Virus record (IMG/VR): IMGVR_UViG_3300006805_000048
Location: 1 to 46,433 of that record
DNA length: 46,433 bases
DNA from: a virus
Reading direction: 5' to 3' (one strand)
Position 1 is the stretch's first letter, and the number at the start of each line of letters is the position of its first letter. This document shows positions 38,235 through 41,242 of the stretch, piece after piece. The notes beneath the pieces are model-generated. The model was not told where the DNA came from. It ran no database searches and was given only the letters and a program-made list of their open reading frames with translations. Position numbers and translations under genes: made by a program.

Positions 38235-38486
38235 ATGAACATAGAACATCCAGACTACGTAGAAGATCATCCAGTCGACCCTACGCTTGAAACATTGTTG
38301 TCAAAACCAGTTGCTGCAGAGCACGAGAGTGTTGTGGTAACGGTGGATGATGACGATGTTGATCCAGATGCGGTGGATGATGATGTGATTGAAGTGATTG
38401 TCGAAGAAATGTTCGGTGATGATGACGATGACGACATTCCAGAATCCACACAACTGGAAGACCCGCCTGCAGTAATCTTTGTTTAA
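38235..38486 (+). CDS. Small highly acidic protein (83 aa)
   Basis: TTGGAG precedes the ATG. About 40 percent Asp and Glu, with runs VTVDDDDVDPDAVDDDV and GDDDDDDIPE, almost no basic residues, and a hydrophobic end (PPAVIFV). Very low predicted pI. Acidic small phage proteins are often DNA mimics or inhibitors of DNA-binding host enzymes, but nothing here identifies a target. Minus-strand frames in the same place are shadows of the GAT repeats. Confidence 0.6.
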   Translation: MNIEHPDYVEDHPVDPTLETLLSKPVAAEHESVVVTVDDDDVDPDAVDDDVIEVIVEEMFGDDDDDDIPESTQLEDPPAVIFV

Positions 38487-38600: not shown

Positions 38601-39068
38601 TTACTCAGCAGTATCCACCGTAGGATCAGGACCAATGATGATTACTGGAATAGGCAAATGTCCAAGACTTTTAACTATCAGTGGGCACACATCTTTCCAA
38701 TCCAATCCGCCTTTTCCACAACCAATCATGGGGAAGACAATTGACTTGATACCCAGTGTGCGCCAGTTCTTAGCGACGTACGTTAATCCAGTTTGAATCC
38801 AAGGCAGTTCAGATGGGTTGCGCCAATCTTCTTTTGTTGGAAAACAAAGGATCTGTTGATACGAGTTATGTTGATATGTCCAGACGTTACCAATGGCCAA
38901 GGTGCTATTACGACACGCCTTTCGGTAATTGAATAACAGTCCTTTATAGCGATTGGCCATGGCTAATGCTAGCCCACTGCCCATCACGCCTTCCGTGTTA
39001 ACGGGACACACCAATGTCTGATGAACACTGTTAAGTATATCACCTTCTGGTTCAAAAATGATGGCCAT
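38601..39068 (-). CDS. DarG-like macro domain, ADP-ribosylglycohydrolase candidate
   Basis: 155 aa, a single macro domain. GDILN near residue 9, CPVNTEGVMGSGLALAM at 21-37 (ADP-ribose cradle), ILCFPTKEDWRNPS at 73-86 (with Lys79), and FPMIGCGKGGLDW at 112-124 (phosphate loop). The NT.GVMG.G.A and FPTK..W..PS..pwI..GL blocks are those of DarG, the antitoxin that removes ADP-ribose from thymidine in DNA after DarT modification. I infer that the phage protein may cleave ADP-ribose from phage DNA or protein and so blunt DarTG-type or other ADP-ribosylating defence. Antitoxin helper domain of DarG is absent. Start codon ATG has only a weak GAG upstream. Confidence 0.82.
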   Translation of the reverse strand: MAIIFEPEGDILNSVHQTLVCPVNTEGVMGSGLALAMANRYKGLLFNYRKACRNSTLAIGNVWTYQHNSYQQILCFPTKEDWRNPSELPWIQTGLTYVAKNWRTLGIKSIVFPMIGCGKGGLDWKDVCPLIVKSLGHLPIPVIIIGPDPTVDTAE

Positions 39069-39083
39069 GGTATTTCTCGATGG

Positions 39084-39617
39084 TTACAGTTTACTAGGGT
39101 CCATACCGAACCGGCTAGTAAGATCTTGATTGCGTTGCTTGGCTTCTTCTTTAGCACGTATTGTATTAACGCGTTCAAGCTGAGCCCGTCGTTCAGTGAT
39201 TAAGAACTCTACCCACTGACGTGGCATTGATAGGAACTGTTCTAAGGTGACCCCACCATGCTCTGGTTTCCCTAACTCATAGTCCATGTACTGCCGAATA
39301 CGATTGGCAGCGGGCCACAGACCGAAGTTACCTTCGACTGGATTAGTAGAAATCAATGCCAGTGGTTGATTCGGGTCATCAAGGTTGGCAAGTCGGTGGG
39401 AATCAATGGCTGCTTCTCGGGTAACCAATACCGAGTTGAAACCTTTGATCCCCTCCGGCCTGGCCTCGCCGATGCGTTCTGCCATATCGATTAGATGCGC
39501 CAGTGCATCGGATTGGCCGCCAAAATCTGGGCTGGTAACGTGACCCCAACACGGGTCGTCGCTGAGGAGCTGATTTAGCTCGTCTTTGCCCGGATGATTC
39601 GATGGCCCATGAGGGCG
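39084..39617 (-). CDS. Frameshift-encoded C-terminal extension of the 39575-41242 gene (about 177 aa)
   Basis: This frame lies -1 to the upstream gene and is open back across that gene's stop to the slippery site at 39617-39623. The first in-frame ATG (39485) has no ribosome-binding site, and the 44 codons before it read as normal protein (DELNQLLSDDPCWGHVTSPDFG is split here by notation). The end contains GGVTLEQFLSMPRQWVEFLI followed by a charged helix, a pattern common in tail assembly chaperones. It is best read as the second half of a fusion made by -1 frameshifting. Independent initiation at 39485 is the alternative. Confidence 0.65.
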   Translation of the reverse strand, partial: RPHGPSNHPGKDELNQLLSDDPCWGHVTSPDFGGQSDALAHLIDMAERIGEARPEGIKGFNSVLVTREAAIDSHRLANLDDPNQPLALISTNPVEGNFGLWPAANRIRQYMDYELGKPEHGGVTLEQFLSMPRQWVEFLITERRAQLERVNTIRAKEEAKQRNQDLTSRFGMDPSKL

Positions 39618-41242
39618 AAAAAAAGCTTGATAGGATCGAGTGGAATGATCTCCGGGTGTTCAGCTTCTGCAGATGTCATTGGCGTTTCACAGCTAGGACA
39701 TGCAAAGGTAGGCACTGCAATCATGGCCACCACAGACTCATCGATAAACTTCTTAATGCCATCAAAGAAAGTATTAGCCACTTCAAAGTCAGCAGACATC
39801 ATGGACAGAATTGGATCGATCGACTCAGAGCCTTCGTATTCCTCTTCTAGGTAAACAACCTTTTCAACCCAGTGTGCATACTGACGCAAGTTGGTCAGCA
39901 CCGCCTGCTGGTTAATGAACTGATTCTTTTCCTTCAACGATACACTGGCACCCAATGATTTCTCAATCATGGTCTCCATACCGTCAATCCATGCAAAGCC
40001 AGACTGGATGTGCTCTTCTAGCGTTGGTGACTTCAGTACGATCTGTAGATCATCGTTGACGCGTACGGTACGCCCATCGGCCAGCAGACCTTGACGTTGA
40101 TATGCCTTTACTTCATCAACGGTGTACTGTGCCTTACGGTTAACCATGTGCTTAATCTGGTCACGAGTTAGAGCACTGCGATCTACCATGAATGTACGCG
40201 CCAAATGAATGTGCGCTTCGGTTACGTGTTGGCATTTCTTAGGATCAGAGATGCACGGTACACGTAGATGGTAACCGGTTGGGTAAATGGTCAGTGCCAA
40301 ACCCATCGCAATCGTAAACAGATCTGTTAACTTAATGACAGACTTGAGGGCATCTGGAGTAGAGACGTTTAGCGTGGTTTGATAGATGCGGTTCAAGGCA
40401 AAGTTAATCAGGTGATTGTGAATGTACACCCCTTCATTAGCGTAAGCCAGTCCACCTGTTTTAGAACCTGTCTCAATCTTTTCTTCAGCCAACATCTGAT
40501 CCAACATTAGGAGTTCAGATTCTTGTGGTGCCAGAATACTGATCCAGATGCCAGAGTGCCAAAGTGGGATTTGAACAGTAGCGCCCAGACCCATCATCCC
40601 TTGCAGTTTCATGGCGGCTTTCTCACCCACCAACTTCTTACCAGTACCACCAAACTCAGGCATGCCTGGTGCCAAACGCGCACCTTCATGTTCTACGAAC
40701 TGGCCCCATTCGGCCGTTTCACGTTTCAGTGGATTTTCGTAGATGCTGCTTTCCAGAATGTTGCTTTCAGCCAAGCTGGCCGATACCAACCACGCTTTAC
40801 CGGCGTCATCTGTAATGGATTCATCTACGTTGCCTAACCGTTCACGCATTTTGTAATACGCTTCATTAGTACGGGCGTACAGATCTAAATAGCCATGTAC
40901 GTTACGCAGTGTCTTGGTATCTTCAACTACGGGACGTACAATTGTCACATGGGGATTACTGCGGTCACGCAATTCTTCCGGAACAGCGACATCGTTGTCA
41001 GATTGATCTGGGCTGGATTCAAAAGCATCAGCGGTAGCTTCAGCGGCTGGTGCAATTGCAGCCATTGCAGTTTCCACTGCAGCAGTGACTGGATCCGGTT
41101 GAGCTGTTGGATCCTCTGCTGCGCCGGTTTCTGGTACAGAAGTTTCCACTGGGGACACTTCCACTTCAGTCTCCGACTCAACAGCAGTAGTTACCACCGA
41201 TTCTTCAGTTACTTCAGTGGATGGTTCATTCGGCGACGTCAT
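39575..41242 (-). CDS. Probable tail/baseplate assembly protein with programmed -1 frameshift (555 aa)
   Basis: The start at 41242 (MTSPNEPSTEVTEES) has GGAGAAAAC upstream; the longer frame to 41347 lacks this. Residues 1-95 are an acidic, Pro/Ala/Thr/Glu-rich disordered region. The rest is folded, with a C-terminal FACPSCETPM (one CxxC) and PLDPIKLFFALMGHRI. The codons CTT TTT TTC at 39625-39617 form the slippery heptamer T_TTT_TTC in the reading frame, 14 codons before the stop. A shift of -1 there adds 177 residues. A short plus long product from one gene just before tail genes is the hallmark of lambda G/GT-type tail chaperones. Family membership itself was not recognised. Confidence 0.65.
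   Translation of the reverse strand: MTSPNEPSTEVTEESVVTTAVESETEVEVSPVETSVPETGAAEDPTAQPDPVTAAVETAMAAIAPAAEATADAFESSPDQSDNDVAVPEELRDRSNPHVTIVRPVVEDTKTLRNVHGYLDLYARTNEAYYKMRERLGNVDESITDDAGKAWLVSASLAESNILESSIYENPLKRETAEWGQFVEHEGARLAPGMPEFGGTGKKLVGEKAAMKLQGMMGLGATVQIPLWHSGIWISILAPQESELLMLDQMLAEEKIETGSKTGGLAYANEGVYIHNHLINFALNRIYQTTLNVSTPDALKSVIKLTDLFTIAMGLALTIYPTGYHLRVPCISDPKKCQHVTEAHIHLARTFMVDRSALTRDQIKHMVNRKAQYTVDEVKAYQRQGLLADGRTVRVNDDLQIVLKSPTLEEHIQSGFAWIDGMETMIEKSLGASVSLKEKNQFINQQAVLTNLRQYAHWVEKVVYLEEEYEGSESIDPILSMMSADFEVANTFFDGIKKFIDESVVAMIAVPTFACPSCETPMTSAEAEHPEIIPLDPIKLFFALMGHRIIRAKTS
39617..39623 (-). promoter_or_regulatory. Slippery heptamer T_TTT_TTC for -1 frameshifting
   Basis: On the minus strand the zero-frame codons are CTT TTT TTC, so T TTT TTC is an ideal X XXY YYZ site. 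It is followed by a small GCCC/GGGC hairpin and the zero-frame stop at 39577-39575. The -1 frame stays open for 178 codons to its stop at 39084. Confidence 0.65.

Follow-up and report, generated by a model that had tools for sequence, protein, structure and literature searches.

On the minus strand of a 46 kb virus record from a phiKZ-like phage (46,433 nucleotides, hereafter called the window), a long gene runs through a short run of T residues just before its stop codon, and the frame offset by -1 is open from that run onward. The locus raises the question of whether it holds two ordinary overlapping genes or one gene read in two ways, and what its products might do. A sequence-only reading had proposed programmed -1 frameshifting and pointed to the G/GT tail chaperone switch of long-tailed phages. 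Here, that proposal is examined by comparison with related genes, by substitution patterns and by predicted fold.

Slip site and reading frames in the window

Features of the locus are listed in Table 1. The slippery heptamer had been placed exactly in register, 14 codons before the stop, and this is what the sequence holds: T_TTT_TTC lies within the 0-frame codons CTT-TTT-TTC (39625..39617, minus strand) and is followed by 13 sense codons and then TAA. The 555 aa protein ends in ...LDPIKLFFALMGHRIIRAKTS. The claimed 177 open codons of the -1 frame are likewise present; the extension begins with the residues RPHGPSNHPG and closes with a stop codon at 39086..39084 (minus strand), giving a predicted fusion product of 719 aa (542 + 177). 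As described earlier, 44 codons precede the first in-frame ATG (codon 45), which lacks a ribosome-binding site. Indeed, no start of any kind in the window's first 45 -1 codons has a Shine-Dalgarno match of at least 4 nt.

Table 1. Coordinates of the frameshift locus and its overlapping reading frames in the window.
Feature	Position	Strand	Basis or remark
Upstream gene, 190 aa	41226..41798	-	Codirectional; 17 nt of its end overlap the start of the frameshift gene
0-frame gene, 555 aa, ATG start	41242..39575	-	Translation; phrog_4585, E 2.3e-118
Slippery heptamer T_TTT_TTC	39623..39617	-	0-frame register; codons L540-F541-F542
0-frame tail, 13 codons overlapping the -1 frame (putative dual coding)	39578..39616	-	Reduced substitution in both frames among relatives
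0-frame stop TAA, end of predicted short product	39577..39575	-	Sequence
-1 extension, 177 aa plus stop	39617..39084	-	Translation; phrog_12109, E 1.5e-7
133 aa ORF, ATG start without Shine-Dalgarno	39485..39084	-	Call expected from a conventional gene finder; relatives annotated likewise

Under the proposed mechanism, a single gene would yield two proteins with their first 542 residues in common. The majority of ribosomes would reach TAA and release the 555 aa protein, while a minority would step back by one base at T_TTT_TTC and read on through 177 codons to complete the 719 aa fusion. In the -1 frame, U-rich codons would let both Phe tRNAs pair again. Among the other window ORFs of at least 60 aa, none combines an in-register X_XXY_YYZ near its end with a -1 extension of more than 32 codons past the stop. 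When the same DNA was shuffled crudely in dinucleotide blocks, 177 open codons arose by chance in 10 of 20,000 trials; we consider the conservation described below far stronger evidence than this shuffle result.

By synteny, the upstream gene is the positional counterpart of phiKZ gp78. Its copies in several relatives belong to phrog_14050; for the window's copy, no phrog was matched. The frameshift gene is directly followed by a gene for a macro-domain protein (38601-39068, minus strand; PF01661, E 1e-10; phrog_335), and phage Goslar carries a macro-domain gene at the equivalent place. A small ORF at 38235-38486 (plus strand), rich in Asp, Glu and Val with DDDD stretches, may be coding.

Conservation of the site and evidence for translation of the -1 frame

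A tblastn search found homologues in 212 phage records, among them phiKZ gp77 and 201phi2-1 gp136. The comparison set comprised 100 distinct homologous genes, namely that of the window, those of 26 named phages and 73 from IMG/VR that were located using sub-alignments. These genes fall into 21 clusters at 40% identity. In all 100 the -1 frame is open for about 149-180 codons beyond the aligned site, and the relative frame of the extension is constant throughout.

Conservation of the heptamer in relatives had been suggested as a check. At the aligned codons the Phe pair reads TTT TTY in 93 of the 100 genes and TTT TTG in one. Automatic reading gave TTT TTT in 57 and TTT TTC in 35; the count of 93 is reached with L066, where TTT TTC stands one codon upstream within an FFF stretch. 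In the remaining six the T-run is shorter, at five or six residues, and its setting less classical (CTT TTT ATT in four genes, GTT TTT TCC in another, and CTT TTT ACG in that of Vibrio phage pVp-JHP1101). In these relatives (L049, L050, L055, L056, L093 and L021) the -1 frame is equally open. The base preceding the Phe pair is T in most genes and A or G in 14. This codon choice is confined to the slip site: none of 41 FF pairs elsewhere in the 100 genes starts with TTT, all starting with TTC, and TTT makes up 34% of all their Phe codons. A tandem -1 slip on T_TTT_TTY would account for most cases, and where the first base is A or G or the T-run is shorter, one Phe tRNA could still re-pair with TTT.

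Additional elements that might promote slippage were sought around the site. No conserved or general stimulatory RNA structure was found downstream (folding z of -0.62 versus -0.65 for the control), and Shine-Dalgarno-like elements upstream showed no enrichment among the relatives. In 46 of 100 genes the five nucleotides following the slip site are ACCCT, read as Thr-Leu in frame 0 and mostly as Tyr-Pro in frame -1; they might also contribute to slippage.

Substitutions between close relatives indicate which frame is under selection along the gene. Upstream of the site they follow the 0 frame, with 435, 251 and 1097 at codon positions 1, 2 and 3, respectively. Over the first 45 nt past the 0-frame stop, the third position of the -1 frame carries 370 substitutions versus 132 and 153 at the other two. 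Ahead of the first ATG or GTG, 86 of 160 changes fall at the -1 third position versus 37 and 37 (p = 9e-8, 17 chosen pairs), a p value that is only indicative because some of the pairs share a clade. This excess agrees with the earlier description of the pre-ATG codons as coding-like. From site to stop, where the frames overlap, third positions change less often (0.17 per site, down from 0.42), the pattern expected if both frames are read. The -1 residues just after the site are conserved (YP.RPE, YVGGPES and similar) ahead of any start. The first -1 ATG stands anywhere from codon 2 to codon 157 and, in several phages, comes only once most of the domain has been passed. Computationally, the -1 frame is thus shown to be translated before any start codon, with both frames constrained in the overlap.

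These patterns bear directly on other accounts of the locus. Annotators of the relatives have called a separate downstream gene, which in the window would begin at its own ATG (39485) next to or overlapping the first gene, the open stretch before it having arisen by chance. In 10 of 100 genes, a start with a 4-nt Shine-Dalgarno match does occur within the first 45 -1 codons; in the other 90 there is none. We reject a separate downstream gene, and consider it exceedingly improbable, on the basis of open-frame conservation, the Shine-Dalgarno scan and the substitution patterns: every gene has an open -1 frame across the site, in an invariant relation, third-position changes are in excess before any start, the first ATG wanders and in several phages falls beyond most of the domain, and Phe pairs are written TTT TTY at the slip site only. 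The layout that would have counted against frameshifting, a pair of genes each with a good start of its own and lacking any slippery sequence, was found in 0 of 100 genes. A sequencing error joining two frames was ruled out because the identical frame relation recurs in 100 distinct genes from both isolates and metagenomes.

Slippage might instead take place during transcription, with the phage RNA polymerase generating a -1 mRNA on the T-run. The run comprises at least seven T residues in 68 of 100 genes and at least eight in 31, and in these 31 genes transcriptional slippage is possible. However, bacterial transcriptional slippage normally requires about 8-9 or more identical bases, and the run is 5-6 long in 32 genes and, across the 100 genes, is kept in codon register in nearly all. 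As a general mechanism, slippage by the polymerase is therefore very unlikely. Ribosomal -1 frameshifting at the T-run is supported by conservation of the slip site, of the -1 frame and of the -1 peptide encoded before any start, and on this comparative evidence we hold it to be very nearly certain. The arrangement is common to 100 of 100 related genes, that of phiKZ among them, and characterizes phiKZ-type giant phages as a family; the locus almost certainly represents a real two-product gene.

Families, predicted fold and probable role

The family of the gene had gone unrecognized in the sequence-only reading; its shared part belongs to phrog_4585, the family of phiKZ gp77. Across the relatives the N-terminal part falls into PHROGs 4585 and 8054 and the extension into PHROGs 12109, 7580, 13274 and 34704, with phrog_12109 matched by 24 of 27 extensions. 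The PHROGs of the two halves are listed separately as of unknown function, and the descriptions shown carry no frameshift link. Similarly, the records examined annotate the halves as separate, mostly unknown proteins. In Erwinia phage RAY (L005:3616-4164) the downstream gene is annotated from a start that lies within the 0-frame gene, ahead of the slip site; its annotators saw the -1 frame but assigned an internal start.

Shared part and extension were modeled as separate halves. The AlphaFold2 model of the shared part (window protein, 61 sequences) has a pTM of 0.88, and the AlphaFold model of the extension a pLDDT of 80.8. In Foldseek, the shared-part model (m49613eecd834) matched several T4-like baseplate hub assembly proteins with a probability of 1.00, E values of 3e-5 to 1e-3 and target TM scores of 0.45-0.56. 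Among the matches were T4-like baseplate hub assembly proteins (E 3.1e-5 and 6.0e-4), a baseplate hub assembly chaperone of an Acidovorax phage (E 6.2e-5), baseplate hub subunits of Vibrio and Bacillus phages (E 1.3e-4 and 9.3e-4) and, more weakly, Aeromonas gp26 (E 0.037, target TM 0.59). Matches outside the gene's own family had probabilities of 0.99-1.00 at about 10% identity. By fold, the extension matched mainly short uncharacterized phiKZ-type proteins. Neither sequence nor fold gave a match among solved structures in the PDB.

Sequence profiles were less informative. T4 gp26 and gp51 are both members of PF12322 (T4_baseplate), a family also represented by phrog_150, and 0 of 27 members of the giant-phage family matched this Pfam entry at E values up to 1. 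Profile comparison with T4 gp26/gp51 by hhalign gave probabilities of 15-35%, which are not significant and derive largely from a zinc ribbon. The extension aligned with the gp51 tail in the expected register, also without significance (P = 0.13, reversed control 0.38). In one record the homologue of the shared part is labeled T4 gp26-like. We infer that the shared part is a gp26/gp51-type baseplate-hub assembly protein, a link that rests on the predicted fold and this depositor's annotation because sequence profiles give no confirmation.

A chaperone role for the products is probable in light of these models. The short form, made in excess, and the minority long form would together fold or hold a hub or tape-measure protein, with slippage setting the short:long ratio and the tail of the long form recruiting a partner. 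In the record of phage 201phi2-1, gp136 carries no mass-spectrometry flag and its neighbors gp138 and gp139 do, which is weakly consistent with an assembly factor. Frameshifting might also be real and its product a head structural protein, an injected virion protein or some other giant-phage-specific protein. The genomic setting fits such a product, the neighbors being RNA polymerase beta, an opposite-strand 'structural head protein', a helicase and the macro-domain gene, as does the failure of sequence profiles to reach T4 gp26/gp51. The fold matches to T4-like baseplate-hub assembly proteins and the unflagged gp136 argue against it, and we judge it rather unlikely. In the window, the genes nearby encode the RNA polymerase beta subunit (phrog_2962), a helicase (phrog_16) and the macro-domain protein; annotated neighbors in relatives are RNA polymerase beta', the structural head protein, a helicase and unknown genes. 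In most relatives the gene order is retained: the upstream gene is conserved, and structural and polymerase genes lie divergently. No tail-tube or tape-measure gene is annotated adjoining the frameshift gene. Taken as a whole, one frameshifting gene whose two proteins serve as a chaperone of the hub or tape-measure protein is, in our view, quite likely the best explanation.

Phages of the phiKZ type have been studied intensively, yet annotation splits this family, which occurs in 212 phage records, and truncates its second half. If frameshifting occurs as proposed, annotations and mass-spectrometry databases miss the long product and misplace the start of the C-terminal part. Frameshifted tail chaperones are of a known kind. 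One with a T4 hub-like fold in phiKZ-type giant phages may be new: no description of a frameshift in the phiKZ-type gene was found in the literature searched, which covered subscription papers only in part.

Comparison with lambda G/GT and T4 gp26/gp51

Phage lambda provides the reference layout of a frameshifted tail assembly chaperone gene, G/GT (PMC5009743). The giant-phage gene shares with it a slippery heptamer near the end of the upstream frame, an overlapping -1 frame without its own start and, in gene architecture, a short and a long product with a common N-terminus. A role in tail assembly is probable in the giant phages, and the slip site is retained across distant relatives. In contrast, their shared part is far larger, spanning about 540 aa and carrying zinc-binding motifs. 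No neighbor of the gene is annotated as a tail-tube or tape-measure gene, and the predicted fold points to gp26/gp51. The resemblance to G/GT that had been proposed thus holds for layout and probable role; it stops short of showing family membership, given that fold and the absence of an adjoining tail-tube or tape-measure gene. The slip sites differ as well. That of lambda is G_GGA_AAG, whereas the giant phages use T_TTT_TTY.

T4 gp26 and gp51 are described in a review as hub assembly chaperones (PMC3004832), and the predicted fold of the giant-phage shared part matches this group. The C-terminus of T4 gp26 reads CPEC...EFFELL, and that of the phiKZ-type short form CPxC...FFTL followed by a short tail; gp51 extends about 45 residues past VFKLL, as the giant-phage long form does past FF. 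Most T4-type gp26 proteins (L130-L167, T4-like loci) have KEFF just two or three residues before the C-terminus, and this aromatic pair is the same pair that bears the giant-phage slip site. Unlike the giant phages, T4 has two separate paralogous genes, and the -1 frame after the FF of gp26 closes at once. Furthermore, the giant-phage protein is about twice as long as T4 gp26 or gp51, and sequence homology was not significant with the profiles built. In T4 both lengths may come from the paralogous genes 26 and 51. In lambda the T part of GT recruits the partner, as the tail of the giant-phage long form would. Because the lengths of gp26 and gp51 parallel those of the short and long forms, we tentatively propose that the T4 pair might be the duplicated equivalent of an ancestral frameshifting chaperone gene that phiKZ-type phages have retained, with the short/long principle of G/GT reached through duplication in one lineage and through recoding in the other.
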